The notes under the pieces: generated by a model
Databases searched by the model: none
Told to the model about the DNA's origin: nothing
Seen by the model: the letters and a program-made list of their open reading frames with translations, nothing else
Translations under genes and position numbers: made by a program
Shown here: positions 13,307-60,767 of the stretch, piece after piece
Position numbering within the stretch: the stretch's first letter is position 1
Layout: each line of letters opens with the position of its first letter
DNA from: Chryseosolibacter histidinae
Lineage (GTDB): Bacteria; Bacteroidota; Bacteroidia; Cytophagales; Cyclobacteriaceae
Direction of reading: 5' to 3'
Assembly: GCF_018598225.1 (NCBI RefSeq)
Contig: NZ_JAHESF010000004.1
Coordinates: 248,001-312,000, forward strand
Length of the DNA: 64,000 nucleotides

Positions 13307-13411
13307 TTTCAAGTTTCAGATTTAAAGTTTCAAGTTGTGCTACGATCCATAGCGCTCCCTTCTTAGCCGAAGCACCCCCTCAACTTTAAACTTTAAACCT
13401 GAAACTTTAAA
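13307..13411. repeat. Heptamer array, inverted pair (TTTAAAG type)
   Basis: Left arm 13307-13334: four tandem 7-mers TTTCAAG, TTTCAGA, TTTAAAG, TTTCAAG. Right arm 13384-13411: CTTTAAA, CTTTAAA, CCTGAAA, CTTTAAA, the reverse complement of the same unit. The spacer is 49 bases. The pair could fold into a 28-bp imperfect stem after the TPR regulator gene. Confidence 0.85.
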
Positions 13412-13487
13412 CCAGCGAGCTTTGTCCCCTATTTGTCCCCCCGCGTCATGACGTGAAGACCGGTCGGCGTGGCATCTTTGGCGATCC

Positions 13488-13688
13488 ATGAAGAAGATCA
13501 TGAACCAGGGAAAACGATCGCTGCCGCAGGTTGATTATGTTACCATACTCATCATCCTGGTTTTTTTGGCGATGGCTTTGGGTGTGTTCTTCTATTACCG
13601 CAATCGCCTGAACATGATCCAGGAAGAGCTCAGGCAAACAGGTTTTCAGGTGGAGAAAAAAACAGGAAAAATGACGGCAAACCTGTGA
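13488..13688 (+). CDS. Small single-pass membrane protein
   Basis: A 66-residue protein with a basic N-terminus, one transmembrane helix (YVTILIILVFLAMALGVFFYY, about 17-37) and a charged, helical cytoplasmic or periplasmic tail (RNRLNMIQEELRQTGFQVEKK covers most of it). A clean terminator follows the stop codon, which supports it as a real transcript. I do not recognise a family. Confidence 0.6.
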   Translation: MKKIMNQGKRSLPQVDYVTILIILVFLAMALGVFFYYRNRLNMIQEELRQTGFQVEKKTGKMTANL

Positions 13689-13722
13689 TTGGAGTTTGTT
13701 ATTTTTTTCATTAGTTGGTTTG

Positions 13723-13752
13723 AAAGCCGGTAAAAATGTTGCCGGCTTTTTT
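13723..13752 (+). terminator. Rho-independent terminator
   Basis: AAAGCCGG (13723-13730) and CCGGCTTT (13742-13749) enclose an 11-base loop, and the T-run continues to 13752. It lies 35 bases after the stop of the small membrane protein gene. Confidence 0.85.
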
Positions 13753-13786
13753 ATTCCGTAATTGCATGTTCAAACGTGCTTTTTTA

Positions 13787-13826
13787 TACGAGACTCTCCG
13801 TACCTCGTACCTCGTATCTCGTACCT
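13787..13826. repeat. Heptamer array (CGTACCT type), short; remaining gap to 14140 empty
   Basis: Four tandem 7-mers CGTACCT, CGTACCT, CGTATCT, CGTACCT occupy 13799-13826; a single inverse unit TACGAGA lies at 13787-13793. From 13827 to 14140 I see no gene, no RNA structure and no clear promoter. Confidence 0.75.
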
Positions 13827-14140
13827 GCTAACACTCATATTGCCCACGAGCACTAATCTTCCTTCACGGAAAGTGTTCATGTCTCTACAATGTTGTTAGC
13901 CGGCAAATTGATCGCGCACCGTTCGAATCACCGTTGAATGGCAGCATAGATCGACTGGCAGCACGTGAGCTTTTGGGGGCCCATAGCCGGGGTGTTGTCA
14001 GGAGAAATTTATGATTTTACGCCCTGGCAGTGATAAAGACGCATAAAGATATTCAACCGCCCGTGCGGCCATTGATCGTAAATACATTGAGGAATGACCG
14101 CAGCGGCCATAGTTTCACAATCAACTAATTACCGTGTGTT

Positions 14141-14503
14141 ATGATAGCCTATACCTCAACATCGGATGTTAACCACATCGTCAATGTGCTAACAGAATGT
14201 GCGAAAGCGTGCAGAAGTCTTACCAACCCGGCGGTACGAAGTTTTTCATTTTCACGCATCCCGAAATTTGTGCAGCTGCTGAACGACTGTGCCGCAACCT
14301 GCGATCTGGCGGTGATCCTCATAGAACGCAAATCGCATATCATCTTTGACTTTCTGGAAGTATGTGAAGAGCTCTCCCTTGAATGCGCCTGGGAGTGCAG
14401 CAATTATGGCTACGAGATCTGCGAACAGTGCGCGAGCGCCTGCGAGCGGGTGGCAAAAGCGTGTTTGCCGTATATTTTGGAGAACAATACCGTTGAGGCC
14501 TGA
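14141..14503 (+). CDS. Csp-like four-helix cysteine-rich protein (DUF326)
   Basis: A 120-residue protein with regularly spaced cysteines on predicted helices: ECAKACRSL, NDCAATCDLA, VCEELSLECAWEC and CEQCASACERVAKAC. This matches the DUF326/copper storage protein (Csp) family, which forms a four-helix bundle lined by Cys that binds Cu(I). It has about 11 cysteines, slightly fewer than classical Csps, and no signal peptide, so it would be the cytosolic type. The start codon at 14141 fits the family length. No metal-transport gene adjoins it; the CDF exporter is 44 kb away. Confidence 0.8.
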   Translation: MIAYTSTSDVNHIVNVLTECAKACRSLTNPAVRSFSFSRIPKFVQLLNDCAATCDLAVILIERKSHIIFDFLEVCEELSLECAWECSNYGYEICEQCASACERVAKACLPYILENNTVEA

Positions 14504-14512
14504 ATGGTTTTG

Positions 14513-14702
14513 AGTCCGCAGTCGACGGTCCACAGTCCACAGCAGTGAGTGTATAGGACACTCGCATGCTTCGTTAGCGTGTTCAAGGAAACCGGGAATA
14601 GAGGCTGTTAGGCCGCTGGCTACTGGGGAAAAACAACAAAAAGCGCGAAATCTGCTTCCTAACATCCCACGTCCGTGGACTGTTGACCGTGGACCGTGGA
14701 CT
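14513..14702. repeat. Heptamer array, inverted pair (AGTCCAC type)
   Basis: Left arm 14513-14540: AGTCCGC, AGTCGAC, GGTCCAC, AGTCCAC. Right arm 14675-14702: GTGGACT, GTTGACC, GTGGACC, GTGGACT. The arms are reverse complements around a 134-base spacer. The array fills the gap between the Csp-like gene and the response regulator. Confidence 0.85.
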
Positions 14703-14754
14703 TTTCATTTTAAACCCCTATCTTGTTACCCTGAAATACCTGAAAGACAAGGGG

Positions 14755-15404: not shown

Positions 15405-15447
15405 ATCCCTATTTTCAGGGATTGTGTTATACCCTATTTTCAGGGAT
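15405..15447. promoter_or_regulatory. Two tandem ATCCCTATTTTCAGGGAT palindromes
   Basis: The interrupted palindrome ATCCCTATTTTCAGGGAT lies at 15405-15422 and again, lacking the first T, at 15431-15447; the units are 25 bases apart. They sit between the response regulator and the sugar kinase gene at 15530. A third copy lies at 18012. They look like operators, though a short hairpin role at the RNA level is possible. An additional small palindrome, AGCACCGAGGTGCT, lies at about 15488-15501. Confidence 0.5.
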
Positions 15448-15529
15448 TTAATTATGATCGATTAATGACAGATTTGTAAGGTATAGGAGCACCGAGGTGC
15501 TTCTTTGTGATCTACCTTAATTTGTACCG

Positions 15530-18137: not shown

Positions 18138-19175
18138 GTGAGCAACAGGCGCAGCTTTATTAAAACATTGTCGCTGGCAGGAGCGAGCTTGGGCTTATTA
18201 AAGCCCGCAACATCTTCTGCGGCGGAATGGTCTGCAAAAAGTAAGGACGGATTTTCGTTCCTGCACCTGACAGACATGCACGTGCGCAGAAAGCGGCAGG
18301 GACATATCGGTTATCAGGCCTGTATCGACGCGGTGAATAAATTTGACCGCACTGCAGACTTTGTGCTCATGGGTGGAGATGGTGCCTTTGATGGCAACTA
18401 CACAGCCAAAGAAGAGTTCATTGACCAGATCGATCTTTTTAAAGGCGCATCCGATAAGCTGAAGATGCCGTACTATAATTCGATCGGCAATCACGATGTG
18501 CTCGGCTGGAACGCACGCAGGAAAGTATCACTCGATGATCCGGACCTGGGCAAGAAGCTGATCATGGACAAGCTGAAGATGCCGAACAGCTACTACAGCT
18601 TCGATCACAAGGGCTGGCACTTTGTGGTGATGGATTCCATTTTTCCCGTAGAGGCCGACCATGGAATAGGGTATAAAGGTGCTTTCGGCGAGCAGCAGCT
18701 GGAGTGGTTGCGTTTTGACCTGGGCAAACATTACAAGATGCCTACGGTGGTCATGACGCACATCGCGGCCTTCTGCCACATCGCACAGATGAATGGCGAC
18801 GGAAAATTCAACGCCATCGGTCACATGGTGGTGGAAGACACCGTGAAGTTCCGCCAGATCATAGAACGGCACAATGTAAAGGCGGTGTTGCAGGGACATA
18901 GTCACGTGCCCGAAGATTTTTATTACAACGGCGTCTGGTATATCACAAGCCAGTCTGTGAGCGCGGCATGGTGGGGAGGCAACTGGAAAGGATTTATGCC
19001 CGGCTATACCGTATTCCATACCGCAGGAGAAACCCTGCGCTGGGAACGCAAAACATTCGAGTGGCAGCATCATCTCGAACCAGAAGATACACTCGAGCGT
19101 CAAAAGATAGCCGAGTACGAGGCATTTGAAAAAAAGCAGGCTGAGCTTCTTGAAGAAGAGACTGCTAGGAAATAG
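18138..19175 (+). CDS. Exported calcineurin-like metallophosphoesterase
   Basis: A 345-residue protein that starts with GTG at 18138 and has a Tat-type signal (SNRRSFIKTLSLAGASLG). The metallophosphoesterase metal motifs are complete and in order: LTDMHV (DxH), MGGDGAFDG (GGD), SIGNHDVLG (GNHD), VMTHIAAF and LQGHSHVP (GHxH). It would hydrolyse phosphomono- or diesters in the periplasm; substrate unknown. It sits between the GH10-like gene and the NamZ gene on the same strand. Its stop codon lies at the first base of the heptamer array that follows. Confidence 0.9.
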   Translation: MSNRRSFIKTLSLAGASLGLLKPATSSAAEWSAKSKDGFSFLHLTDMHVRRKRQGHIGYQACIDAVNKFDRTADFVLMGGDGAFDGNYTAKEEFIDQIDLFKGASDKLKMPYYNSIGNHDVLGWNARRKVSLDDPDLGKKLIMDKLKMPNSYYSFDHKGWHFVVMDSIFPVEADHGIGYKGAFGEQQLEWLRFDLGKHYKMPTVVMTHIAAFCHIAQMNGDGKFNAIGHMVVEDTVKFRQIIERHNVKAVLQGHSHVPEDFYYNGVWYITSQSVSAAWWGGNWKGFMPGYTVFHTAGETLRWERKTFEWQHHLEPEDTLERQKIAEYEAFEKKQAELLEEETARK

Positions 19176-19251
19176 ATGCGAGACATGGGATGTGAGATAT
19201 GAGACAAATGCAAGGTGGCTCCAAGTCTCAAATCTCATCTCATATCTAGTC
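19175..19251. repeat. Heptamer array, inverted pair (GATATGA type)
   Basis: Left arm 19175-19209: GATGCGA, GACATGG, GATGTGA, GATATGA, GACAAAT. Right arm about 19224-19251: AGTCTCA, AATCTCA, TCTCATA, TCTAGTC, the inverse of the same unit in a shifted phase. The spacer is only 14 bases. It begins at the stop codon of the metallophosphoesterase. Confidence 0.75.
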
Positions 19252-32300: not shown

Positions 32301-33542
32301 TACAGGGCGATGATGCCCAGGCAGCATACCGTTGCGCCCGACATCAGCATCGAGATGATCCAGCATGAGCTGAGCGGCGACCTCGAGATAGAGTCGCTTG
32401 TGAAAAAACTGATGGTGTTGCTGCTGCGGATCTCAGGGTCTACCGCCGTGGTGATCGAGTCGGTGGAAATGAATGGCGACTTCAAAAGACTGGGAGATTT
32501 TTCACTGCTGCCGATCGAGGGCAGGGGCAGCAACGAAGAGATCGGGTTCATCCGCCGCAACAAGCTGCTGCAGGCCTACAGGTCGCAGAAGCTTGTGGTG
32601 ATCAACAATGTGCAGGCCGATGAATCGTTCAGGAACGATCAGCTGCACCGTGGCCGGGATGTGCAGTCGTGTATCATTTTGCCCGTGACCATCCGCGACC
32701 ACCATACACTGATCATTTACCTCGAAAATGTTTTCGCCGCCAACTGGTACACCGAGGAGATCATCAAGTGGATCAGGATCACCGCCAACCAGGGCGCCGT
32801 GATCATCGAGAACGCGCGCATCCATGAAGTGACACTCAAGCTGAATGAAGAGATCCGCGAAAAAATGTCGGAGAAAGAACGCCTTGCCAGCGAGATCCAG
32901 AGTCAGCGAGACCTCCACCTCAAGGCGCTGGTGCAGACCCAGAACAACGAACGTAAGCGAATAGCAGGCGACCTCCACGACAGCCTCGGCTCCATGCTGT
33001 CTAGCGTGAAGCTCAGGTTCAATAGCTTGCAGGATGATTTTGTGAAGAACCTGCCCGACAAGGCTGTTCGGTTCAACGATACCATCAAGCTGCTTGATGA
33101 CGCCGTGCACGAGCTCAGGAGAATCACACACAATATGTTGCCCGTTTCCCTGAGCCGTTTCGGATTGAAGCCTTCCCTGCAGACGTTTGTCGACCAGGTG
33201 AACGTGGACAAGCGCCTGGTTGCCGACCTGCAGATCCTGGGCCTCGAGCAACGCCTCGACGAAGAGCTGGAGGTAAGCATTTACCGGATCTGCCAGGAGC
33301 TGGTGCAGAACGTGATCAAACACGCAGCGGCAACCACGGTACGCATTCAGATCATCGATCACGAGGATGTCATCAACCTGATCGTGGAAGACAATGGCCA
33401 GGGTATGGTCTGTGATGAGATCAACGCCGGCCTCGGCTTCACCACCATTGAATCGAAAGTAAAATTATTCAAGGGCACATTCTCCATAGAAAGCCAACCC
33501 GGCAAGGGTACCATGGTACTGGTGGATATTCCGAAGGTTTGA
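29385..33542 (+). CDS. Giant AAA-TPR-GAF sensor histidine kinase (HisKA_3 type)
   Basis: A 1385-residue cytoplasmic protein with no membrane segment. Residues about 25-330 form an AAA/STAND-type ATPase with P-loop GYAGIGKT (48-55) and Walker B-like VFLFTDDVQWMD (about 173-184). A long TPR-like helical region follows (about 430-980), then a GAF domain (about 1010-1160), then a HisKA_3 dimerisation domain with the phospho-acceptor in AGDLHDSLGS (His about 1198), and an HATPase_c domain with VEDNGQGM and GKGTMVLV. It resembles MalT-like STAND sensors joined to a NarX-type kinase. The likely partner is a NarL-type regulator such as that at 14755. Its divergence from susC suggests it controls this locus. 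Confidence 0.9.
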   Translation: MLSDKITGITPRLAADFTKDGRWIRLESFVDKMLTNHEQDLCGVLLSGYAGIGKTYFIENYLKRYELTHPVLIARHREQNAAIPYFGFKLAISDFLFNICNRSSRNEIDSFTASLKEYFGPAFPLLLEYIPEVTILTGEDHHTGQRYTLKIENQLFSLMQSLFSFLADYFKNPVFLFTDDVQWMDASGINLLKHLLLQLPADRIIWIGAYQEHHSNMNPLYHMVEELRLEKKHVEGILIKYFTQDEVRTAMEDILGNTCHHELVDVCFEVSDGNPSHLHALLESLKTTDLIWLEQAEWKCNKEAVKLRYNVRRTDKNILDRLSEVSAITREMLLVVSCMKAVHIAVLTDWLGGDHTKLNELFTEAEQSGLLAGEGNSYRLAEAFSAEVIYKNIHPERKTAIHYSIAKLLYNRITQKLTPDEFILMTQQFDLALGLVRKNNEQQLCADLNYLAGNYSKQVGALAQAQYFFKLSADLLKECKWDQTAEQIYLVYMERAKLEYQLGEFDLAEIHLDYLIEHIKDIHKRAKAFELKIIINNHLGRYRKAVQILKEGLHELSLDLPLEDDLLHREVEQLKKFLVDNGSGAGNMLATEENSKDQKAILKLLYVGGMSLHHTSDVLMTWAALQIIHRSGKTVISEEKAIGYVSYGRMQIIADQIDKGYEFGLKALEINNTLGDISLRCRVYGVYAFYIQPWKKAFHASMEYIRQGREAGKKAGDFIGSYILNTHQLNLHILSGLPLHDIMKLELEETHPEVELTYYITHYQKNLIKFLIGESTIFSIPRLQPSWLAAKFTIQEEKFYRNHVWARYYLLFGYYGLAENAAREADANRKLQEGSPMLPANYMIWFLAITQHWFNYKADRQKALRPVLGVILAKMDLWRTHAPENYSSYWWLLNAELMRIENKQEQALQHYNDAMNTAGSNIYQSAMIAEFRFKYLLTNPGRRKEAQSALLQAQDLYRQWGAVAKVNQLAQQYRAMMPRQHTVAPDISIEMIQHELSGDLEIESLVKKLMVLLLRISGSTAVVIESVEMNGDFKRLGDFSLLPIEGRGSNEEIGFIRRNKLLQAYRSQKLVVINNVQADESFRNDQLHRGRDVQSCIILPVTIRDHHTLIIYLENVFAANWYTEEIIKWIRITANQGAVIIENARIHEVTLKLNEEIREKMSEKERLASEIQSQRDLHLKALVQTQNNERKRIAGDLHDSLGSMLSSVKLRFNSLQDDFVKNLPDKAVRFNDTIKLLDDAVHELRRITHNMLPVSLSRFGLKPSLQTFVDQVNVDKRLVADLQILGLEQRLDEELEVSIYRICQELVQNVIKHAAATTVRIQIIDHEDVINLIVEDNGQGMVCDEINAGLGFTTIESKVKLFKGTFSIESQPGKGTMVLVDIPKV

Positions 33543-33543
33543 A

Positions 33544-33689
33544 GTTTCAGGTTAAAGGTTTAAAGTTTCAGGTTGAGCTGATTCGAAAAGTGTGCGAGTG
33601 TGCATTTGCACCCTGGAAACAGTAACCGTATCTTGCCTAACCTGAAACTCAAAACTTTAAACTTCGAACTTTAAATTTTAAACTTTAAA
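33544..33689. repeat. Heptamer array, inverted pair (GTTTCAG/CTTTAAA type)
   Basis: Left arm 33544-33571: GTTTCAG, GTTAAAG, GTTTAAA, GTTTCAG. Right arm 33641-33689: CCTGAAA, CTCAAAA, CTTTAAA, CTTCGAA, CTTTAAA, TTTTAAA, CTTTAAA. The right arm has seven units against four on the left, so arm lengths vary. It starts one base after the stop codon of the kinase gene and ends 14 bases before the next ATG. Confidence 0.9.
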
Positions 33690-33702
33690 CTTCCTTCGCG
33701 TT

Positions 33703-34875
33703 ATGCAAGCCCTTGCCGAAATACAAAGTCCCGGGTCTGGGTTACAGACCAAGGCAACCCGTTTTCTTTCCCTCGATGTTTTCAGGGGGATGACCGTTGC
33801 CGGGATGATCATGGTGAATACGCCCGGAAGCTGGTCGTACGTGTATGCGCCGCTCCGGCACGCGCCCTGGGACGGATGCACCCCCACGGACCTGGTGTTC
33901 CCGTTCTTTCTATTTGCAGTGGGTAATGCGCTGAGCTTCTCCATGTCGAAGTACGAGGCCCAGGGAACCGGCAAGGTGCTTCAGAAGATCTTCACCCGCA
34001 CGGCCCTGATCTTTGCCATTGGTTTGTTCCTGAACTGGTTCCCGTTTGTTCGCTTCCAGGACGACGCCTACGTTTTTAAACAGTTCGAGAGCCTTCGCAT
34101 TTTTGGTGTGCTGCAACGCATCGCGCTGGCATACATGGGTGGTGCGTTGATCGTACATTTTTTCAAACCGCTGAAAGCATTCATCGCAGCCCTCTCGTTG
34201 CTCGTGCTCTATTGTATCATTCTGGTGACGTTTGGCGACCTCACGCTGGAAGGCAATGCTGTATTGAAGCTCGACCGCTGGCTCATCGGTGAAGCCCACA
34301 TGTATCATGGATACTTCAGCAAGGTGCTGAACGAGAATATCGCCTTTGACCCCGAAGGATTGCTGAGCACTATTCCAGCCATGGCATCCGTGGTCTTCGG
34401 TTTCCTGGTAGGAAAATTCATCAAAGAGAAAGGAAGCTCTTACGAGATGATCACACACCTGCTGGTGGCTGCGATGCTCTCTCTGTTTGTGAGTCTCTGC
34501 TGGGACCTGGCGTTCCCCATCAACAAACCGATCTGGAGCAGCTCTTATGTTTTTTATACCACAGGACTGGCCATGATGGTGTTATCGTTCATCCTGTTTG
34601 TGGTTGAAATGAAAGGACGCCGTAACTGGACCAACGCTTTTGTGCTCTTCGGAAAAAATCCGCTGCTGATCTATGCACTGTCAGGCATCATCGTCAAGAT
34701 CTATGGTTTGATCCGTATTGACGACGGCGGTGCCTACGGCGCCATATACCGCTACGTATTCCAACCCATCGGCGGCGACTACTTCGGCTCCCTGCTCTTC
34801 GCCCTGGCGCATGTGGCGTTGTTCCTGCTAGTAGGATGGTTCCTGGATAAGAAGAAGATCTACGTTCGAGTTTGA
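33703..34875 (+). CDS. NagX-like membrane acyltransferase (heparan-alpha-glucosaminide N-acetyltransferase family)
   Basis: A 390-residue membrane protein with about ten transmembrane helices. It begins with RFLSLDVFRGMTVAGMIMVN and continues with PWDGCTPTDLVFPFFLFAVG, both signatures of the HGSNAT/DUF5009 family. Human HGSNAT acetylates terminal glucosamine across the membrane; bacterial NagX genes go with GlcNAc or chitin use. Here it ends the amino-sugar locus, downstream of the large kinase on the same strand, which supports a role in handling amino sugars or re-acetylating them (inference). Confidence 0.85.
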   Translation: MQALAEIQSPGSGLQTKATRFLSLDVFRGMTVAGMIMVNTPGSWSYVYAPLRHAPWDGCTPTDLVFPFFLFAVGNALSFSMSKYEAQGTGKVLQKIFTRTALIFAIGLFLNWFPFVRFQDDAYVFKQFESLRIFGVLQRIALAYMGGALIVHFFKPLKAFIAALSLLVLYCIILVTFGDLTLEGNAVLKLDRWLIGEAHMYHGYFSKVLNENIAFDPEGLLSTIPAMASVVFGFLVGKFIKEKGSSYEMITHLLVAAMLSLFVSLCWDLAFPINKPIWSSSYVFYTTGLAMMVLSFILFVVEMKGRRNWTNAFVLFGKNPLLIYALSGIIVKIYGLIRIDDGGAYGAIYRYVFQPIGGDYFGSLLFALAHVALFLLVGWFLDKKKIYVRV

Positions 34876-34878
34876 AAA

Positions 34879-34983
34879 GGAGTAAGAGCAAGTAGTAAGT
34901 AGTAAGGAGAAGAACCTTGTTAAACTCAATGCTTTGATCTTCGAAGCACTTCTCCTTACTCCTTAATTCTTACTCCTTACTCC
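34879..34983. repeat. Heptamer array, inverted pair (GGAGTAA type)
   Basis: Left arm about 34879-34913 contains GGAGTAA followed by AG-rich and GTAAGTA-like 7-mers in register. Right arm 34949-34983: CTTCTCC, TTACTCC, TTAATTC, TTACTCC, TTACTCC, its inverse. It starts 3 bases after the stop codon of the NagX-like gene. Confidence 0.85.
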
Positions 34984-35005
34984 TTTTTCTCCTCATAAAG
35001 AAATA

Positions 35006-40632: not shown

Positions 40633-40638
40633 AGAAAA

Positions 40639-40818
40639 GGAGTAAGGAGTAAGAATTAAGGAGTAAGGAGAGAAACTCCGTATCGAAGATATGATGAAAT
40701 GGAGCAGGGATGCTTATAGTGTAGCTCACTACTGCACTGATTCGGAGCATTCAGATGACATCATGAACGGTTCCCAGAACGTAGGCCTCCTTACTACTTA
40801 CTCCTTACTACTTACTTC
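40639..40818. repeat. Heptamer array, inverted pair (GGAGTAA type)
   Basis: Left arm 40639-40673: GGAGTAA, GGAGTAA, GAATTAA, GGAGTAA, GGAGAGA. Right arm 40791-40818: TTACTAC, TTACTCC, TTACTAC, TTACTTC. The 117-base spacer carries no gene. It separates two convergent genes. Confidence 0.9.
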
Positions 40819-40821
40819 TTT

Positions 40822-41961
40822 TTATTCCAGCTTCAGCGCCTGCAAACAAACCGGCGACGGTACCTTCACTTCGTTTCCGGAATAAGTAAGCTTTCCTTTT
40901 TTAGCGTCCCACTTAAAGATCACGATGTTATCGGTGTCCTGATGTGCTACGAACACGAATTGATTTTTCGGGTCGATAAGAAAATTGCGGGGCTTTTTGC
41001 CGTGGGTTTCCACTGCTTCTTTTAAACGAATGGTGCCATCGATGTTGATGGAGAACAGCGCCAGTGACTCGTGGCCGCGGTTAGACATCATCAGGAATTT
41101 TCCGGATGGGTCGGTGTGAATATCGGCGCTGGTATTGGTGCCGCTGAAATCAACGGGCAGGGAAATTACTTCATCCTGTATGATGTCCAGTGCCCCGGTG
41201 GCGCGGTTGTAGGAGAAAGCGCATACCGTTGACGTTAGTTCCTCGGCAAGATATGCGTGCAGCCCGTTCGGATGAAATGCGAAGTGACGTGGCCCGGAGC
41301 CGGATTTCACTTCAACGTACGGTTTTTCTGCCGGCTTCAACCGTTTCGCCGCAAGGTCAATGGCATAGCTGTAAACCCTGTCGGTGCCCAGGTCGCACAC
41401 AATTAAGAAGCGGTTATCAGACGACACTGTTGCGGAGTGTACATGGGGTTTCTCCTGACGGGTTTCGTGAGGGCCGCGGCCGCTGTACCGGATAGAATCA
41501 GAAGGAGCGCCAAGAGAGCCGTCATCACCCAGCGGGAATACCACCAGGTTTCCTTCGTTATAATTAGACACGAAAGCCAGCTTGCCGGTTTGGTCTACGC
41601 TGATGTGGCACGGACCGTTCCCGTACGAAGGCTGATGGTTCACCAGGGTGAGCAGGCCGGTTACAGCATCGATGGCGTAGGCGCTGACCGAGCCCGAATT
41701 TTTCTTGTCTTGCACGATGCCCCGGTTCACCGAGTAGAGGAATTTCCCCGAAGGATGGATGGCGATAAAAGAAGGACTCTCAAGCGTTTTCACAGTCTGC
41801 AGGTGCTCCAAGGTCCCTTTTTTCCGTTTGAGCTCGTAAACATAGATCCCCTCGCTGCCCCTCACAGAAAAGGTGCCCGCATACACGATCTCTCTTCCCC
41901 GCTGGGCAAATGCGGAGAACATCAGGCAGAACAGCAATAGGGTAGTGGAGATTTTTTTCAT
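40822..41961 (-). CDS. Exported lactonase-fold beta-propeller (6-phosphogluconolactonase-like)
   Basis: A 379-residue protein with a signal peptide (MKKISTTLLLFCLMFSAFAQ). The seven-bladed lactonase family (Pfam Lactonase) signature runs through it: YELKRKKGTLEHLQTV, FIAIHPSGKFLYSVNR, GNGPCHISVDQTGK, PHVHSATVSSDNRFLIVCDL and GSGPRHFAFHPNGLHAYLAEE. Family members include cytosolic 6-phosphogluconolactonase (Pgl) and carboxy-cis,cis-muconate cyclase; the signal peptide makes a periplasmic role on another lactone more likely. It lies convergent to the antiporter, and divergent from the DUF1800 gene. Confidence 0.88.
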   Translation of the reverse strand: MKKISTTLLLFCLMFSAFAQRGREIVYAGTFSVRGSEGIYVYELKRKKGTLEHLQTVKTLESPSFIAIHPSGKFLYSVNRGIVQDKKNSGSVSAYAIDAVTGLLTLVNHQPSYGNGPCHISVDQTGKLAFVSNYNEGNLVVFPLGDDGSLGAPSDSIRYSGRGPHETRQEKPHVHSATVSSDNRFLIVCDLGTDRVYSYAIDLAAKRLKPAEKPYVEVKSGSGPRHFAFHPNGLHAYLAEELTSTVCAFSYNRATGALDIIQDEVISLPVDFSGTNTSADIHTDPSGKFLMMSNRGHESLALFSINIDGTIRLKEAVETHGKKPRNFLIDPKNQFVFVAHQDTDNIVIFKWDAKKGKLTYSGNEVKVPSPVCLQALKLE

Positions 41962-44680: not shown

Positions 44681-44740
44681 CCCGTCCCCTGTTGGTGTTC
44701 TTCTGTGCCGTTGTTGGTGTTCTTCACCAACAAGCCACCC

Positions 44741-44843
44741 GTTCCATTTTCCATTTTCCGTTCTCCTTACTTCTTAATTCTTACTCCTTACTCCTTTTCC
44801 CAGCCTTCCCCTCCTGACTCCTGGCTCCTGACTTCTGGCTCCT
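44741..44843. repeat. Composite single-arm heptamer array
   Basis: Several 7-base units follow one another: TTCCATT-like units at about 44742-44759, then TTACTTC, TTAATTC, TTACTCC, TTACTCC at about 44767-44794, then CTCCTGA, CTCCTGG, CTCCTGA, CTTCTGG at about 44811-44838. There is no inverse arm nearby. Just before it, TGTTGGTGTTCTTC occurs twice (about 44691-44704 and 44712-44725). The array ends close to the candidate promoter box of the next gene. Confidence 0.75.
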
Positions 44844-46331: not shown

Positions 46332-46335
46332 CCAA

Positions 46336-46430
46336 CCTTAAACCCTAAACCTGAAACTTTAAACTTTACCCAGTCTTCTAAATCAGTCCGCCCCCAACCG
46401 GCAACCGGTAACCGGTAACTGGCAACCAAT
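46336..46430. repeat. Two single-arm heptamer arrays (CTTTAAA and AACCGGT types)
   Basis: 46336-46370: CCTTAAA, CCCTAAA, CCTGAAA, CTTTAAA, CTTTACC. 46396-46430: AACCGGC, AACCGGT, AACCGGT, AACTGGC, AACCAAT. Neither has an inverse arm in this gap. The first starts 4 bases after the regulator stop codon. Confidence 0.85.
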
Positions 46431-46551: not shown

Positions 46552-48882
46552 ATGACGACCAGAAATTTACTGACAACGCTGTTGTTACTTGCCGCCCTGC
46601 TGCCTGCGCGGGTATGGGCACAAAATGATGTGATGATGCAGGGTTTTTACTGGGATGTGCCGGTAGACGCTGTAGCCAAGAACGGAAGCTGGTGGACCAA
46701 CCTAAAAAACAAATCAACCGTCCTGAAAAACGCCGGTATCAAAGGTATTTGGGTGCCATCTCCCGCCAAGGGAAACTTCGGTATCTATGACATGGGCTAC
46801 GGCATCTTCGATCCCTACGATCTCGGTAATTATAACCAGAAGGGCACTGTGGAAACACGTTTCGGCTCGCGCACGGAGCTCGAGCAGATGATCAGCACCC
46901 TGCATACTGATGGCATAGACGTGTATGCCGACATCGTGCTGAACCACCTGTATACAGGCGATGCCGAAGACCAGTCGAACCCGGCAGTGAAACAGTATGT
47001 GTTCGATCAGGCGTTCCGCAATGGTCAGCAGTACTCGCCTTATCCCACCAACGAAATAAAATGGGTGATCAAAAACGCTGCGCCCGGTGATTATTACATC
47101 CAGATCCATGGCTATCACCTTGCCAGCACGGCTAAAGTGGAACGGGGATACGACCTGCAGATCGATTACGCCGGCACCGGTTTCAACTCCACCTTTTCAT
47201 GGGAAAGCGAGCCCAACAACGGAAGTGGAAATTTTAACGTGTTTCCCGCTTCGGGCAACACCGTGCGTGGCCATGTGGAGGTAAACGATTTTGACGAGTT
47301 CAAAATTACTGTGGCCAGCACACGCGATGTCATCATCAGACTGACGGCGCGCCGGGAAATAGCCAGTCCGTGGGAGTGGGCCTGGGCCGATCAGACCAAC
47401 GGTTATTACCCCAAGTTCATCTGGTCCGGAAGCACCAACATTGCGGCTACCACGCAGCTGGAAGCCCACACCAACACCAATATCAACTATGTGAACCATA
47501 CGGGCACGGGAGAAGCCAACTTCTCATGGGGTTACGGCGATTTTCACCCCGTGAATAATACAGACTGGCTGGGATACCCGGGCTCTGACGAGATCATCAC
47601 CAATACCAAGTTCTTCGGCAACGACCTCAACACCTTCAGCACCACGGTGCGGCAGCGCTACCAGGCCTGGGGCGTGTGGCTTGCCAACCAGATCGGCTTT
47701 GACGGTTTCCGCCTGGATTTTGTACGCGGCTTCCAGGAAGAATACGTTGCTGCCTGGGTGAACAACCTCCCGCTCAAGAGTGGAAGCCAGCGTTTTATTG
47801 TAGGTGAATACTGGGGTGCCGACTACCGCATCAAAAACTGGGTAAATGCCGTGGCCTCTTATGGTGCCGATGTTGATGGATTCGATTTTCCCCTCAAGTC
47901 GTCGCTCACCGGCATGTGCAACGGTAACGGTAGCGGTTTCGATATGCGATGGCTCAACCACGCCGGTATGGTACGCAATAGCGGTGGTAACGCCCTGCCC
48001 GGAACCTCGGTGGTCACCTGGCTCGATAACCACGATACGGGAAAAGAGCACGACAAGTGGATCACCAAAGACTGGAAGATGGGCTATGCCTATATCCTCA
48101 CGCACGAAGGCCGCCCCTGCGTATTTTATAACCACTATTTTGGCGATGTGATGGTAGATGCGCATAACGCAGCGCTGACGGTGACACCTGACCCGAACCT
48201 TGGCCTCGACCTTAGAAAGCTGATGTTCGCCAGGAGAACGTATCTTGGCGGAACCCTTACTGTACTGAGTGAGGTTGGCAATCCTTATCCTTCTGCCGAT
48301 GCTTACAACGTCTATGTTGCACGCCGGGCCGGCAATGGTACCAAGAGCGGTGCCATTGTTGTGATCAATAACCACGATACACAGACCAAAGGCCTTTGGG
48401 TAGATTCCTCACCTGCGGGATGGGCAAGCTGGAGCGGACAAACCCTGGTGAACGCTTTTAACACGGCACAGACCGCGGTAGTGCAGGCCGATGGTCGTGT
48501 TTATGTTTCTGCACCACCCAGAGGGTATGCGGTGTATGTGAAGCAAAGCGAGGTGGTGTCTTATACCGATCCCGGCGCACGGTTGCGTACCAACGTCAGC
48601 TCGGGGGAAGAGTTCTCGGGCGAGCCCGACGGCATGTTTGAGCCGGAATTCAAGATCTGGTCAAACCCCGTGAAGAGCAAATTGAATGTGCTCATCGCGT
48701 TGCCACGCAATGAAGCCGTGCAGCTTGAATTTCTAAACGTAAAAGGCGAACGTGTGCTTCAGCAGGCAGCCCAAACGAACCGTTCTACGGAGGTGGACCT
48801 CTCACCCTTTCCCGCAGGTGAATACATTCTCCGCGCCGCTATCGGTAGGGTTGTGAGAACACGGAAGATCATCAAAGAATAG
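46552..48882 (+). CDS. Secreted GH13 alpha-amylase with T9SS sorting domain
   Basis: A 776-residue protein with signal peptide (MTTRNLLTTLLLLAALLPAR). The GH13 motifs are complete: region I DIVLNH (127-132), region II GFRLDF with nucleophile Asp about 389, region III GEYWGAD with acid/base Glu about 419, and region IV LDNHDT with Asp about 495. Between regions I and II (about 165-300) lies an insertion with a beta-rich module (WVIKNAAPGDYYIQIHGYHL onward) that bacterial alpha-amylases usually lack. The last about 80 residues (IWSNPVKSKLNVLIALP to RKIIKE) form a type A C-terminal sorting domain, so it should leave through the type 9 system. Starch or glycogen breakdown is expected. Confidence 0.93.
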   Translation: MTTRNLLTTLLLLAALLPARVWAQNDVMMQGFYWDVPVDAVAKNGSWWTNLKNKSTVLKNAGIKGIWVPSPAKGNFGIYDMGYGIFDPYDLGNYNQKGTVETRFGSRTELEQMISTLHTDGIDVYADIVLNHLYTGDAEDQSNPAVKQYVFDQAFRNGQQYSPYPTNEIKWVIKNAAPGDYYIQIHGYHLASTAKVERGYDLQIDYAGTGFNSTFSWESEPNNGSGNFNVFPASGNTVRGHVEVNDFDEFKITVASTRDVIIRLTARREIASPWEWAWADQTNGYYPKFIWSGSTNIAATTQLEAHTNTNINYVNHTGTGEANFSWGYGDFHPVNNTDWLGYPGSDEIITNTKFFGNDLNTFSTTVRQRYQAWGVWLANQIGFDGFRLDFVRGFQEEYVAAWVNNLPLKSGSQRFIVGEYWGADYRIKNWVNAVASYGADVDGFDFPLKSSLTGMCNGNGSGFDMRWLNHAGMVRNSGGNALPGTSVVTWLDNHDTGKEHDKWITKDWKMGYAYILTHEGRPCVFYNHYFGDVMVDAHNAALTVTPDPNLGLDLRKLMFARRTYLGGTLTVLSEVGNPYPSADAYNVYVARRAGNGTKSGAIVVINNHDTQTKGLWVDSSPAGWASWSGQTLVNAFNTAQTAVVQADGRVYVSAPPRGYAVYVKQSEVVSYTDPGARLRTNVSSGEEFSGEPDGMFEPEFKIWSNPVKSKLNVLIALPRNEAVQLEFLNVKGERVLQQAAQTNRSTEVDLSPFPAGEYILRAAIGRVVRTRKIIKE

Positions 48883-49031
48883 TAGGCAGTAGGCAAAAAC
48901 GGCAGTAGGCAACGGGAGTGACGACTGACAGGTACCGGTTTCTTAATTGACATTTGAAACAGTACCCTTGAAGGCCGTGGATTACCGTTGCCTACTGCCC
49001 CGATTTATCGGGCTTTGCCTACTGCCTACTG
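48882..49031. repeat. Heptamer array, inverted pair (GTAGGCA type)
   Basis: Left arm: GTAGGCA at 48882-48888, 48889-48895 and 48905-48911. Right arm: TGCCTAC at 48989-48995, 49016-49022 and 49023-49029. The first unit starts on the last base of the amylase stop codon. The last units supply the final codons and the stop (TAG) of the minus-strand response regulator gene. A 15-base hairpin CCCCGATTTATCGGG lies inside the right arm. Confidence 0.9.
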
Positions 49032-49597: not shown

Positions 49598-49664
49598 ACC
49601 TGTAGTAACTTTTTTTCGAAGCAGAGCTATCGGCGCTTTACGGGGTGTGCACGCACACAGAAAA

Positions 49665-49752
49665 GGAGTAAGAATTAAGGAGTAAGTAGTAAGGAGGAGG
49701 ATAATTTTCGATCTGTGCGTCTCCTTACTCCTTACTTCTTACTCCTTACTAC
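49665..49752. repeat. Heptamer array, inverted pair (GGAGTAA type)
   Basis: Left arm 49665-49692: GGAGTAA, GAATTAA, GGAGTAA, GTAGTAA. Right arm 49725-49752: TTACTCC, TTACTTC, TTACTCC, TTACTAC. The right arm overlaps the 3' end of the Lrp-family gene and supplies its last codons and stop. Confidence 0.9.
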
Positions 49753-50193
49753 TACTCTAGGCTCCGGATTCCCTGACAAAATAATAGACGTCGCAGTCTC
49801 TCCGTATTTCCCGAGCTTCTCGAGAAAAAGCTCCAGCTCTTTTGTAGTGGCAACAGCAACTTTCAGCAACATGCAGCAGTCGCCGGTAACGGTGTACCAT
49901 TCTGTGATCTCTGGCATGGTGCTGATCAGCTTCACTACCTCTGCGTGTTTGAGCGCCGTTGATTTGAAGTTGATAAAGACACGCACGGTCAGGCCGATCT
50001 TATCGTAGTCGATCACCGTACGGTAGCCCTGGATCAGCCCTTCTTCTTCCATCCTGGAGATGCGCTCGGCCACAGCAGGTGCCGTGAGACCAACACGCCT
50101 GCCGATCTCAGAGGCAGAGATCCTTGCATTCTGCTGAAGCTCTTCCAGTATGCGCCAGTCGAGGTCGTCCATTGCTTTTGATCTGCGATCCAT
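49732..50193 (-). CDS. Lrp/AsnC-family transcriptional regulator
   Basis: A 153-residue protein with the family layout: an N-terminal HTH (LDWRILEELQQNARISASEI, RRVGLTAPAVAERISRME) and a C-terminal RAM ligand domain (VRVFINFKSTALKHAEVVKL, YTVTGDCCMLLKVAV). A second Met at residue 8 (50172) is an alternative start. Lrp/AsnC proteins bind amino acids and control amino-acid genes as octamers. Its C-terminus VVVRSKK comes from the repeat array, so the natural end may have been altered. It is divergent from the NIPSNAP gene. Confidence 0.9.
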   Translation of the reverse strand: MDRRSKAMDDLDWRILEELQQNARISASEIGRRVGLTAPAVAERISRMEEEGLIQGYRTVIDYDKIGLTVRVFINFKSTALKHAEVVKLISTMPEITEWYTVTGDCCMLLKVAVATTKELELFLEKLGKYGETATSIILSGNPEPRVVVRSKK

Positions 50194-50292: not shown

Positions 50293-51099
50293 ATGCACAG
50301 CAAAGTAACAAGAAAAAAATTTCTTCACGTGAGCACTTCCTTTTTGGGATTTTCGGCGCTGAGCCCATTCGGTTTTGGTGAATCATTGCCTGTCGTAAGA
50401 TCTCATCACAGGGGATCTGAGGATACCGGACATTTGAGCACAACAGAGGATGACACCATCCGGGTGCTGGAGCTGCGCAACTACCTGCTGAAAACAGGAA
50501 TGCGCGAAAAATTCAACCGCTACTTTTCCGAGCACTTTATGACCTCGCAGCAGGTGATGGGGGGATATGTACTGGGACGATTCGCCATTACAGGTGAAGA
50601 CGACAGATTTTTCTGGATGCGCGGTTTCAATGATATGCTGACGAGAAGCAAATTCCTGCCTTCCTTCTATGGCGGAAGCCCCGCGTGGAAAAGCTTCGGC
50701 CCGGGAGCAAATGAAATGATGCTGGAAGTAGATAACGTACACCTCGTACGACCGCTCGCCGAAACCCGGCACAGCACGTTTCTCGCTTCGTCAAATTTAG
50801 TTGTCATAGATTATTATACCGCGCACGGTCATCGTCTTGAAGACCTTATCTCGGTATTTCGTTCAGCGTATCTTCCCTCACTGGTATCGCAGGGCCTGGA
50901 ATCCTCGCTGTGGGTGAGCGAAATGAACACGAACGATTTTCCACGGCTTCCTGTGATCCAGGACCCGAACCTGCTGATAGTGATCACCGGCTATCGCGAT
51001 GAAGCCGCCTATCGACACGCAACAAAAACAGATGCAGTGGGCAACGATTTGAAAGAATTGCTGAGCAACAGACGCACGCTTGTGCTGCGAAGAACGTAA
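50293..51099 (+). CDS. NIPSNAP-family protein with export signal
   Basis: A 268-residue protein when started at 50293, where a signal-like segment begins (MHSKVTRKKFLHVSTSFLGF); the ATG at 50239 adds 18 residues. Residues about 75-180 hold a NIPSNAP domain (VLELRNYLLKTGMREKFNRY, YVLGRFAI, FFWMRGFNDM), a ferredoxin-like alpha-beta barrel. The C-terminal half may be a second, weaker copy. The function of bacterial NIPSNAP proteins is unclear; they resemble monooxygenase-like barrels. Confidence 0.82.
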   Translation: MHSKVTRKKFLHVSTSFLGFSALSPFGFGESLPVVRSHHRGSEDTGHLSTTEDDTIRVLELRNYLLKTGMREKFNRYFSEHFMTSQQVMGGYVLGRFAITGEDDRFFWMRGFNDMLTRSKFLPSFYGGSPAWKSFGPGANEMMLEVDNVHLVRPLAETRHSTFLASSNLVVIDYYTAHGHRLEDLISVFRSAYLPSLVSQGLESSLWVSEMNTNDFPRLPVIQDPNLLIVITGYRDEAAYRHATKTDAVGNDLKELLSNRRTLVLRRT

Positions 51100-51101: not shown

Positions 51102-51231
51102 AGTCTATAGTTCATGGTCAATGGTCGTCTGGTGTTTATCCAGAGAGCGGTGTCATGTTCGAAAGAACGAAGCCGTGCCTTTGTCAGCCTTGCCGGTCCT
51201 GCCATGGACTATGGACCATTGACTATGGACT
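51102..51231. repeat. Heptamer array, inverted pair (AGTCTAT/ATGGACT type)
   Basis: Left arm 51102-51129: AGTCTAT, AGTTCAT, GGTCAAT, GGTCGTC. Right arm 51204-51231: ATGGACT, ATGGACC, ATTGACT, ATGGACT. It starts 3 bases after the NIPSNAP stop codon. The remaining gap to the TatA gene shows nothing else. Confidence 0.85.
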
Positions 51232-54890: not shown

Positions 54891-55337
54891 ATGCGAATGT
54901 CAAACGGTGATTCACCTCATGTGATGATTGCGGAAGATGATGATGACGACTACTACATTTTTTCAGTTGCCCTGGAAGAGCTGTCCATCACAGTTGTACT
55001 GACAAGAGCCCGGAACGGGGATATCCTGGTGCGTCTGCTGGAAGATAAGGTGCCGGACATCCTGTTCCTGGACCTGATGTTGCCAGGCAAAGACGGCCGC
55101 CAGTGCCTGCGGGAGATCCGCGCCAACAACAAATACGATGCGCTGCCGGTGATCATGTACAGCTCGCTCAAGAGCATCGACGAGATCGAATTCTGCTACC
55201 GCGAAGGCGCCAACCTCTATGTGATCAAACCAACCGCCTACACAGACCTCAAGGATATTTTGCAACGCATCCTCCATATCGATTGGAAAAAACTGCTCTA
55301 CTATCCGCCCCTGTCCCAGTTTGTAATCAACGGTTAA
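54891..55337 (+). CDS. Single-domain response regulator (Rcp1-like receiver)
   Basis: A 148-residue receiver without output domain. Acidic cluster EDDDDD at 15-20, phospho-acceptor Asp about 61 (DILFLDLMLPGKDGRQ), Ser/Thr of VIMYSSLKS and Lys in YVIKPTAY. The second Met (residue 3) is an alternative start. Like the receiver at 49019 it lacks any DNA-binding domain and probably works in a phosphorelay. Its stop codon TAA lies in the left arm of the AACCGGT repeat array. Confidence 0.9.
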   Translation: MRMSNGDSPHVMIAEDDDDDYYIFSVALEELSITVVLTRARNGDILVRLLEDKVPDILFLDLMLPGKDGRQCLREIRANNKYDALPVIMYSSLKSIDEIEFCYREGANLYVIKPTAYTDLKDILQRILHIDWKKLLYYPPLSQFVING

Positions 55338-55426
55338 CCGGTAACCAGTAATCGGTAATCAGTAATCAGTGTGCTATTGATAACCGACACACCGATTACC
55401 GGTAACCGATTACCCGATCACCGATT
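55336..55426. repeat. Heptamer array, inverted pair (AACCGGT/ACCGATT type)
   Basis: Left arm 55336-55370: AACCGGT, AACCAGT, AATCGGT, AATCAGT, AATCAGT. Right arm 55391-55411: ACCGATT, ACCGGTA, ACCGATT, with a further ACCGATT at 55420-55426 after an 8-base unit. It overlaps the stop codon of the receiver gene. Confidence 0.85.
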
Positions 55427-59174: not shown

Positions 59175-59200
59175 CAAAAGTAGGCCAAAATACAGTGCAA
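59175..59200 (-). promoter_or_regulatory. Candidate promoter of the CDF gene (TTG and TACTTTTG)
   Basis: On the minus strand TACTTTTG (59182-59175) matches TAnnTTTG and a TTG lies at 59200-59198, with a 15-base gap, a little short of the usual spacing. It lies 50 bases upstream of the CDF start codon. Confidence 0.45.
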
Positions 59201-59238
59201 CAGGTTTGCAGGAAGAATTTAAGTCGATAGGAGCGCCC

Positions 59239-59309
59239 AACCCTTTGAGGGCTTTTCAGGAGGCAGTAACAGTGGATCAGCACAGGCACCTGCAAACCCT
59301 CAAAGGGTT
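59239..59309. other. Long-range inverted repeat AACCCTTTGAGGG
   Basis: AACCCTTTGAGGG (59239-59251) and CCCTCAAAGGGTT (59297-59309) are exact inverse arms around a 45-base spacer. The element lies between the divergent CDF and small-membrane-protein genes. The same sequence core, CCCTTTGAGGG, ends the histidine kinase gene near 36003. Confidence 0.5.
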
Positions 59310-59331
59310 TCTCCAAGCGTGAGTTCTTTTA

Positions 59332-59381
59332 GTCGTCGGACCACTAGCCGCGCGCATGCATTTGCGCAGTGGTCTGACGAC
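59332..59381. repeat. GTCGTC palindrome, copy 2
   Basis: GTCGTCGGACCACT (59332-59345) and AGTGGTCTGACGAC (59368-59381) form a 50-bp palindrome with a GC-rich centre containing GCATGC. This copy lies between divergent genes, unlike the other two. Confidence 0.85.
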
Positions 59382-59494
59382 TATCCAGCTCTTCTAACCA
59401 AAATCTAATCTGCCATTTCGAACAGAATAGCGGGTACAGGCGTTAATCCGGCTGATACAGCTAAGCCATGGGTGGCATAGTTGAAAAAATGATG

Positions 59495-59502
59495 TATTTT
59501 TG
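59495..59502 (+). promoter_or_regulatory. Candidate -7 box TATTTTTG
   Basis: TATTTTTG matches TAnnTTTG and lies only 6 bases before the ATG at 59509, which would give a leaderless or nearly leaderless transcript. A TTG at 59481-59483 is too close for a standard -33 box. Confidence 0.3.
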
Positions 59503-59508
59503 ACAGAT

Positions 59509-59853
59509 ATGAAATTGTTCAGGGTCAAATTTGTTCGCGATGTAATGCTTCTCATTGCAGGACTCACCTTCCTGAACATGGGCTTTTTCCTGGCAGAGGC
59601 TGCAGCGCTGAAGCTGAAAAACACAAAGCTGTTGGAAAACATCGCCAGATCGGGTTTTGAAGAAGAACGCGATGGTGGCGAGGAGGCTCCCGGCGGTGAT
59701 GCCAGCGAGGAAGAAGTCGACCTCATGAACAATCACTATTTCTTTCAGCAGTCGATTTCCTTTGAGTTCATACTGCAACGAAAGGGTGCGCATAACGAGC
59801 GGTTCTCTCCTCCGCATCATCTCGAAATTTTTTGTCCGCCTCCAGAGGCCTGA
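59509..59853 (+). CDS. Small exported or membrane protein
   Basis: A 114-residue protein from the ATG at 59509; a TTG at 59500 is less likely. It has one N-terminal hydrophobic segment (DVMLLIAGLTFLNMGFFLAE), then an acidic stretch (EEERDGGEEAPGGDASEEEV) and a C-terminus ending FCPPPEA. Small proteins of this size and ending occur next to heavy-metal efflux genes in Bacteroidota as I recall; here the CDF exporter is divergent next door. Function unknown. Confidence 0.6.
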   Translation: MKLFRVKFVRDVMLLIAGLTFLNMGFFLAEAAALKLKNTKLLENIARSGFEEERDGGEEAPGGDASEEEVDLMNNHYFFQQSISFEFILQRKGAHNERFSPPHHLEIFCPPPEA

Positions 59854-60017
59854 TCACTTCCCTGCAGCTGATCACGGTTGCACAGCCTTCTAAGGCTACC
59901 CTGCATTTTGTTATTCTTTAAATCCCCGAAGCCAGCGTTAGTGCTGGATTGCTTTGCGGCATTTTTTATGTGCTGTGCATGCTTCGGACTTGTAAAAATT
60001 ACTCAACACGAATTATT

Positions 60018-60656
60018 ATGGACGTTTATAAATCACTATTGGAAGGAAACCGTACGTGGGTCAAACAAAAAAACGAAGAAGATCCGCAGTTTTTTGAACG
60101 CCTTTCGAAAGGTCAGAGCCCGAAGGTATTGTGGGTAGGTTGTTCGGACAGTCGTGTTCCTGCGAACCAGATCACCAATACCAATCCAGGTGATATTTTT
60201 GTACACCGTAACATTGCCAACGTGGTTGTTCATTCTGATATGAACATTTTAAGCGTGCTGGATTATTCTGTCAATATTTTAAAAGTGGAGCATGTTATTG
60301 TGTGTGGCCATTACGGCTGTGGCGGTGTGGAAGCTGCCATGCAGAATAAAGCATTCGGTCTGGTAGACAACTGGCTCAGGTTCATCAAAGACGTGTACCG
60401 GATCCATCGTGATGAGCTCAATGCCATTGCCGATTACCAGGAAAGACTGGATCGTTTTGTAGAGCTCAACGTGATCGAGCAAGCCTACAGCCTCATGAAA
60501 ACCACCATCATCCAGAATGCGTGGGCCGAACGAAACGGACCCAAAGTACATGCCTGGGTCTACAGCCTGAAGACCGGCGTCATCACCGACCTGAAAGTTT
60601 CAGGCGAGAACCTGAAAGACCTGAAACCTTTGTACAGGATCGCGGAAGAGGTGTAG
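60018..60656 (+). CDS. Beta-class carbonic anhydrase
   Basis: A 212-residue enzyme from the ATG at 60018; the longer in-frame ORF starts in an untranslated-looking region. The zinc ligands are Cys 42 (GCSDSRVPANQI), His 98 and Cys 101 (VCGHYGCGG), with Asp 44 and Arg 46 forming the catalytic dyad. It has no signal peptide, so cytosolic. It converts CO2 to bicarbonate and supplies carboxylation reactions. Convergent with the PAS kinase gene across a repeat region. Confidence 0.94.
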   Translation: MDVYKSLLEGNRTWVKQKNEEDPQFFERLSKGQSPKVLWVGCSDSRVPANQITNTNPGDIFVHRNIANVVVHSDMNILSVLDYSVNILKVEHVIVCGHYGCGGVEAAMQNKAFGLVDNWLRFIKDVYRIHRDELNAIADYQERLDRFVELNVIEQAYSLMKTTIIQNAWAERNGPKVHAWVYSLKTGVITDLKVSGENLKDLKPLYRIAEEV

Positions 60657-60658
60657 AG

Positions 60659-60767
60659 AGTCCACAGTCCACGATCGACAGTCCACAGACGAATAGTGTT
60701 GCGTAGAAGTTTGCCTGCTGATTTTCAAAGCGCAATTGGGAGACATTACAATGTACGTCGGTGGACT
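60659..60767. repeat. Heptamer array (AGTCCAC type), one-sided
   Basis: 60659-60686: AGTCCAC, AGTCCAC, GATCGAC, AGTCCAC. A single inverse unit GTGGACT lies at 60761-60767. It starts 2 bases after the carbonic anhydrase stop codon. Confidence 0.85.

Follow-up and report, generated by a model that had tools for sequence, protein, structure and literature searches.

The question raised by the window, a stretch of 64,000 nt from the draft genome of the soil bacterium Chryseosolibacter histidinae (G000:C67:248001-312000; contig NZ_JAHESF010000004.1), is why so many of its intergenic gaps hold tandem arrays of 7-base units (heptads), mostly as two inverted arms around a spacer, and whether each array grew in place from a local seed, as an earlier sequence-only reading had proposed. 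The seven-base arrays and their inverted pairing were found to be real and far above chance. There are about six main heptad families, located mostly behind stop codons, with gain and loss as indels of roughly 100 bp and with one pool of units serving both arms. With a probability of roughly one half, the arrays are the arms of dispersing hairpin elements in which the heptads are homogenized genome-wide.

The host genome comprises 8.04 Mb in 122 contigs, of which a sample of 1.249 Mb including the window was scanned, together with 1.3 Mb of G002, which with G001 represents the same genus. Genes of the host and G002 were called with a simple hexamer caller, with which some starts and stops are possibly wrong and some divergent gaps may conceal a gene. 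Arrays were sought as lag-7 matches under a strict rule (17 of 21 matches), a loose rule (14 of 17) and, for comparing the window with a shuffled copy, a rule of 20 of 24. Heptad arrays lie within the first 100 bases of host contigs C50, C71, C91, and C93; the draft assembly breaks at such arrays and the array counts are therefore lower bounds.

Period-7 Arrays and Their Anatomy

The host sample was found to contain 170 strict arrays at period 7 (155 of them intergenic), with a further 98, 32, and 10 at the multiples 14, 21, and 28, compared with 0–7 at each non-multiple of seven between 3 and 30. In the window, ten period-7 regions were detected against none in one shuffled copy, so that the chance explanation which the sequence-only reading had named as its test does not hold. 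Under the loose rule, 205 arrays were identified in 141 of 619 host gaps of at least 30 nt, which by extrapolation from 1.25 Mb to the whole genome would amount to approximately 1,300 arrays in some 900 gaps. Array-bearing gaps were more frequent between convergent genes (34/107) than divergent ones (15/121; p = 0.0006), with tandem gaps at 92/391. An inverted partner was present in the same gap for 134 of the 205 arrays, compared with a direct partner for 27 and a single partner in the control, a random array-free gap; an ungapped version of the search gave 135 inverted and 34 direct.

The same pattern was observed in G002, with 115 strict arrays at period 7 compared with 18 or fewer at each period that is not a multiple of seven, array-bearing gaps in 25/93 convergent, 52/401 tandem, and 10/142 divergent cases, and an inverted partner for 87 of 141 arrays vs. 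42 direct. The 5′ arm there began a median of 5.5 nt past the stop in 30 tandem gaps, and both arms lay within 20 nt of both stops in 7 of 16 convergent gaps. Arrays of period 8 (18) and period 16 (11) are likewise in excess in G002 (L081-L085, L175-L234). Beyond these two genomes no strong general excess was found at 80 glmM loci (1.56 Mb, G002 region included), where the strict rule gave 20 arrays of period 7, 15 of period 8, and 10 of period 6. Smaller samples gave one array in 0.105 Mb of G001 and 0–2 each in 20–60 kb of five other genomes. Inverted heptad arrays with other units were seen downstream of glmM in a Bacteroidetes metagenome-assembled genome (L107 11455-11602) and in Adhaeribacter soli (L113 11400-11838), and glmM of the host is also trailed by an inverted heptad array.

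Read away from the stop, the main host families are AAAGTTT, RGTTRCC, RGTCSAY, AAGGAGT, RRTACGA, and RGTRWTC, within which variation is mostly limited to two to four of the seven positions; assignment was to the nearest consensus and is rough, with some units falling in the wrong group. Three tandem copies of RGTTRCC gave 258 matches in the host genome and none in G001 or G002. With at most one mismatch, AAGGAGTAAGGAGTAAG gave 188 matches in the host genome, none when the pattern was reversed, and none in the same-genus genomes, while AAGTTTAAAGTTTAAAGTTT gave 181 in the host and 6, 3, and 1 in three of 40 other genomes of the same bacterial family. The reversed AAGTTTAAAGTTTAAAGTTT control gave 27 matches in one such genome, G041, which are probably heptads of G041 itself. 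The families of G002 (AGATTTT, AAGCTGC, AAGTTCC, AATGACG, and others) differ from those of the host.

An element consists of an arm of approximately 25 nt, a spacer of 3–217 nt and a second arm. Median spacers were 92 nt for GGTTGCC, 101.5 for GGTCCAC, 97.5 for AAGGAGT, 26.5 for GGTACGA, 33 for AAAGTTT, and 32 for GGTAATC. Over 56 paired tandem host gaps the distance from the stop to the start of the 5′ arm had a median of 4.5 nt (quartiles 1.75 and 14), and that from the end of the 3′ arm to the next start a median of 62 nt. Of 25 convergent gaps, 16 had each of the two arms within 20 nt of a stop at either end. With family orientation fixed only after inspection of the data, 96 of 101 stop-proximal host arrays carried the usual strand of their family (four opposite, one unassigned), and among assigned tandem-gap arrays at a distance of over 30 nt from the stop codon, 59 of 73 carried the opposite strand. 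This strand bias is in part a consequence of the hairpins sharing one polarity, as a hairpin reads identically from both sides. In a 0.5 Mb subset of G002, to which the strand and terminator counts for that genome refer, assignment by host family consensus gave 12 vs. 7 with three unassigned. A unit grammar common to all families was considered and rejected: RG[AT] was present on the coding strand in 94 of the 101 stop-proximal host arrays (24 on the other strand), but in only 10 of 22, vs. 7, in G002.

Origin of the Arms and Turnover of Elements

The sequence-only reading regarded the unit as peculiar to each locus and the arrays as grown by copying of a local seed. The first of these views is corrected by the recurrence of identical units genome-wide as families, and the second is not borne out by the arms. 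Among arms with the same consensus unit, the fit to the own partner was 19.9, compared with 20.9 for arms of other gaps (n = 60; p = 0.02, favoring the others) and 6.7 against other families; in G002 the values were 21.1 for the own partner and 21.4 for the others (n = 15). For units at most one change apart, own and other arms fitted equally (host n = 81, p = 0.28; G002 n = 36, p = 0.17). Base frequencies at each position also agree between arms, as for position 1 of RGTTRCC with A 0.45 and G 0.51 in the 5′ arm vs. A 0.45 and G 0.49 in the 3′ arm. As own arms are no better matched and frequencies are equal, the two arms of an element resemble samples taken from a pool common to the family.

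Several narrower ideas on arm origin were tried and set aside. Mirror copying of one arm from the other received a value of 19.4 vs. 18.9 (p = 0.69) in a selection-matched test, the same-unit comparison being likewise negative. Separate lineages of 5′ and 3′ arms were rejected with similarities of 0.821 (5′-5′) and 0.826 (5′-3′). A stop codon acting as seed is weak at best, with in-register values of 0.36 vs. 0.29 in the host and 0.36 vs. 0.30 in G002.

Comparison of 196 neighboring gene pairs conserved between the host and G002 identified 25 with arrays in one species only. In these, the array-bearing gap exceeded its array-free orthologue by a median of 94 bp (quartiles 41 and 179), whereas for 165 pairs lacking arrays the median of the absolute length differences was 21 (p = 1.6e-5), examples of one-sided cases being gaps of 6 vs. 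134 nt, 9 vs. 192 nt, and 27 vs. 122 nt. This surplus indicates that gain and loss concern the complete hairpin, in the form of an indel. Hairpins were also found inside operon-like junctions. Two junctions are discussed here, one probably DUF3098-uppP and the other probably acpP-fabF. The former measures 95 nt with AAAGTTT arms in the host and 101 nt with AGATTTT arms in G002, whereas it is array-free at 23 nt in G001 and at −4 to 53 nt in the 17 other genomes of the bacterial family, out of 29 loci, in which the upstream gene was found. The probable acpP-fabF junction (host C45:324366) is 3 nt long in the host. Its orthologue in G002 extends over 282 nt, with approximately 190 nt of nearly perfect GATTTAA heptads carrying on from the end of the upstream gene.

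Where orthologous gaps measured at least 60 nt in both species (n = 75), arrays were present in 15 host gaps, in 12 of G002, and in both species in 6 (2.4 expected, p = 0.011). Two of these shared gaps, C45:240833 and C45:320766, have two inverted arms hard by the stop in both species, with AAAGTTT as the host unit and AGATTTT as that of G002, and would be explained either by replacement of the family on both arms or by two independent insertions. The remaining four are less clear, with single or direct arrays among them. At C45:311342, which is array-free in the host by the rule used, an RGTC unit follows the stop in both species, as RGTCCAC in the host and RGTCAYT in G002.

Elements Within the Window

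Tandem Repeats Finder (TRF) and inspection of the sequence confirmed period-7 arrays at all the positions named in the sequence-only reading, spread over 14 gaps, and its statement that most gaps hold inverted arms is true for 11 of them. Eight hairpins are assigned to the plus strand. Two belong to the AAAGTTT family, at 13305..13412 (arms 13305-13337 and 13381-13412) behind a gene ending at 13301 and at 33534..33693, where the element overlaps the stop codon at 33542 (arms 33534-33574 and 33639-33693). The RGTCSAY (AGTCCAC) family is represented at 14513..14702 (arms 14513-14558 and 14657-14702; TRF and arm pairing), an AGTCTAT/GGTCCAT variant following the stop at 51099 lies at 51102..51231 (arms about 51102-51126 and 51204-51231), and a weak AGTCCAC hairpin following the stop at 60656 lies at 60659..60769 (arms 60659-60699 and 60748-60769). 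The others are of the AGATATG/AGATTTG family at 19175..19246 (arms 19175-19201 and about 19223-19246), located at the stop at 19175 and with its inversion read from the sequence, of the AAGGAGT family at 34877..34985, past the stop at 34875 (arms 34877-34912 and 34949-34985), and of the RGTRWTC (GGTAATC) family at 55331..55426, in overlap with the stop at 55337 (arms 55331-55373 and 55388-55426).

Three hairpins have no strand assigned. An AAGGAGT hairpin at 40635..40822 (arms 40635-40670 and 40787-40822) is flush with both stops (40632 and 40822) of a convergent pair, and a further one lies at 49659..49758 (arms 49659-49696 and 49721-49758). The hairpin with a GTAGGCA unit at 48881..49030 (arms 48881-48897 and 49014-49030), also between convergent stops, is 100% complementary over 17 nt. 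RNA folding of seven of the 11 inverted gaps gave z-scores of −3.8 or lower in five (−6.4 at 13305, −7.8 at 34877, −5.0 at 49659, −3.9 at 51102, and −5.1 at 55331), with −2.4 at 19175 and −0.9, no better than shuffles, at 60659. The three remaining gaps, also without assigned strand, comprise a lone CGTACCT array of the GGTACGA family at 13799..13826, partnerless according to TRF and the sequence, two same-direction arrays without inverted partner at 44763..44843 (CTCCTTA 44763-44796 and CTCCTGA 44811-44843), and two same-direction arrays of different families at 46334..46427 (AACCTTA 46334-46368 and AACCGGC 46395-46427), situated past the stop at 46331 in the unusual strand.

Other repeats were also observed. 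A non-heptad palindrome (GTCAGACCACTGCGCG...) occurs at 60784-60827 and 59335-59378, with four genome copies at up to three mismatches; one of these copies, at C67:156698, fills a convergent gap that in G002 is occupied by a heptad hairpin. At 15407-15455 there are two tandem copies of a 25-nt unit with CCCTATTTTCAGGG, itself a small inverted repeat. A GTTGGTGTTCTTC/ACCAACAA repeat at about 44690-44738 precedes the CTCCTTA array, and a stretch resembling it is present in a hairpin spacer of contig C111 near 62.9 kb. An Rfam search of the window at gathering thresholds returned one tRNA only and no group I intron, and a plasmid search with the exchanger gene returned no matches.

Origin and Relation to Known Repeats

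The closest precedent is the GGGAATC repeat of Xanthomonas, with 70 and 75 inverted heptad pairs in two genomes (Rehm et al., 2015; PMC4692102), by which the inverted arrangement, a feature that the sequence-only reading had set apart from the cyanobacterial repeats, had already been reported. It has in common with the host arrays tandem heptads that are mostly intergenic, form inverted pairs, lie on the coding strand 0–50 bp past the stop and favor convergent over divergent gaps (PMC4692102). However, Xanthomonas has one G-rich, quadruplex-forming unit (GGGANTN), whereas the host has about six main families, and none of their consensus units holds a GGG run, from which it follows that the arrangement does not need quadruplexes; two copies of GGGAATC gave no match in the 1.25 Mb host sample. 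The resemblance to cyanobacterial short tandemly repeated repetitive (STRR) sequences that was noted earlier is supported, as is a genome-wide period-7 system with inverted arms. The P6b stem of the Nostoc trnL intron consists of heptads whose motif class was repeatedly replaced while the stem persisted (PMC4476775); Nostoc is also described as having an STRR hairpin close to a 3′ end (PMC2670836). Common to both systems are 7-base units in both stem arms and hairpins near 3′ ends (PMC4476775; PMC2670836), but P6b lies inside a group I intron and the host has hundreds of intergenic sites.

TAACTGA repeats of Beggiatoaceae, also present in five Bacteroidetes, are mostly direct and lie just before starts (MacGregor, 2015; PMC4679880); they are heptads like the host arrays, which however are inverted and behind stops, and two copies of TAACTGA gave no match in the host and G002 samples. 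Repetitive extragenic palindromic (REP) sequences and bacterial interspersed mosaic elements are likewise dispersed multi-copy hairpins, mostly downstream of coding regions, but REPs are palindromes of 20–40 bp tagged GTAG or CGTC (PMC3733652) without tandem heptads, and no link to a REP-associated tyrosine transposase (RAYT) was found among the five Y1 transposase genes whose flanks were covered. Heptamer-derived satellites have also been noted (PMC6749651). In the open-access literature searched, the TAACTGA direct repeats were the only counterpart found for Bacteroidota, in agreement with the earlier reading, which knew of no description of such a system in the phylum. The spread and function of bacterial heptad repeats were left open in PMC4692102.

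On the reading given roughly even odds above, the elements would spread by copying from other loci, either through ectopic gene conversion or through template switching at the tandem units. Slippage by 7 bp would alter copy number, while copying between loci would keep a family uniform genome-wide and would let one family replace another at an old site, giving each species its own set. The position behind stops would be where such inserts are best tolerated, and a hairpin at the 3′ end of a transcript may there protect or define the RNA end. Several observations weigh against this reading. No copying enzyme was identified, and 70 of the 205 host arrays are partnerless at the ungapped threshold. 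In six of the 25 pairs with arrays in one species only, the gap with arrays is the shorter of the two or exceeds its orthologue by no more than 8 nt, and at shared junctions replacement and double insertion are indistinguishable. For units up to two changes apart, the own partner fits better (19.9 vs. 17.1, p = 3e-7; G002 20.3 vs. 14.6, p = 3e-9), and arms excised as best matches favored local matching (0.847 vs. 0.802, p = 7e-5; unit order p = 6e-6); we take these two tests and the loose-unit result to be effects of selection and mixed units.

The best placed of the alternatives, which nevertheless appears unlikely, is that the hairpins are functional RNA 3′ ends, selected to block exonucleases or to aid factor-dependent termination, with the sequence drifting while the arms pair. 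The location behind stops, the convergent excess in both genomes, the stable folds of five of seven tested window hairpins and the co-occurrence at orthologous gaps all agree with such a role, as does the scarcity of terminator-like sites at array-bearing convergent ends of the host (5/68 vs. 35/132, p = 0.0013). However, no significant depletion of such sites was found in host tandem gaps (17/90 vs. 55/246) or at convergent ends of G002 (8/22 vs. 14/44), where tandem gaps gave raw counts of 2/19 vs. 22/103. The stems are not followed by a U-tract, present in 9 of 106 tails vs. 141 of 1890 control positions (7.5%) and in G002 in 5 of 62 vs. 190 of 1985 (9.6%), and an identity as intrinsic terminators was rejected on this ground in both genomes. 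Mismatches on the mRNA strand showed no clear wobble preference (G.T 74 vs. A.C 56, p = 0.14), locus-specific compensation was not evident in the arms, and the hairpins in operon-like junctions also speak against selection as 3′ ends. Dispersal of tolerated hairpins is graded as most likely, and a protective or factor-dependent 3′ role as possible.

Growth in place, with slippage extending a chance seed and template switching within the gap supplying the inverted arm, is improbable. Among the long simple repeats of bacteria, those of period 7 are the most frequent (PMC4679880; PMC4692102, after Mrazek 2007), and the GATTTAA run of the 282-nt gap of G002 would fit such growth. Growth in place does not account for families that recur genome-wide, for family-identical arrays at unlinked loci, for arms that are not matched by locus or for stop codons hardly in register. 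Miniature transposons mobilized by a REP-type or IS200-like Y1 transposase are a still poorer account. Indel-like gain and dispersed hairpins behind genes would suit them, and PF01797 matches occur in all three same-genus genomes (4, 4, and 5), but fixed element ends were not seen and a loose-rule array lay beside none of the five Y1 genes with flanks examined, a part of all Y1 genes. One of the five, in G002, has a weaker AATGACG-like heptad stretch between the stop of a neighbor and the 3′ end of the Y1 gene (L266 735-761). As a separate observation, CGCCCTTTCAGGGC-type palindromes lie on both sides of a Y1 transposase gene at L265 (about 700-1500), and this motif gave no matches in the 1.25 Mb sample. 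Double-stranded, insulator-like binding arrays for sequence-specific DNA-binding proteins are highly improbable, as the variation confined to two to four positions with equal frequencies in both arms would also result from recent spread of a heterogeneous founder, and the proteins would have to change with the families that differ among same-genus species.

What is new relative to the known systems is the coexistence of several families, none with a G-run in its consensus, and the differing units at the same junction in two species, together with evidence for a genome-wide pool as the source of the arms and for indels as that of the hairpins. The architecture is independent of G-quadruplex and U-tract, the arms are not locally copied, and whole hairpins enter and leave gaps as indels, while a species of the same genus carries different families, partly at identical junctions; this separates questions on heptad repeats that had been tangled together. 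Quite tentatively, heptad hairpins may be interchangeable 3′-end modules, for which a copying process would draw on the genome-wide unit pool and swap the family on both arms while the hairpin persists at its junction, with each species amplifying its own families, and which would point to a homogenizing system at the DNA level common in architecture to Bacteroidota, Xanthomonas, and Nostoc.

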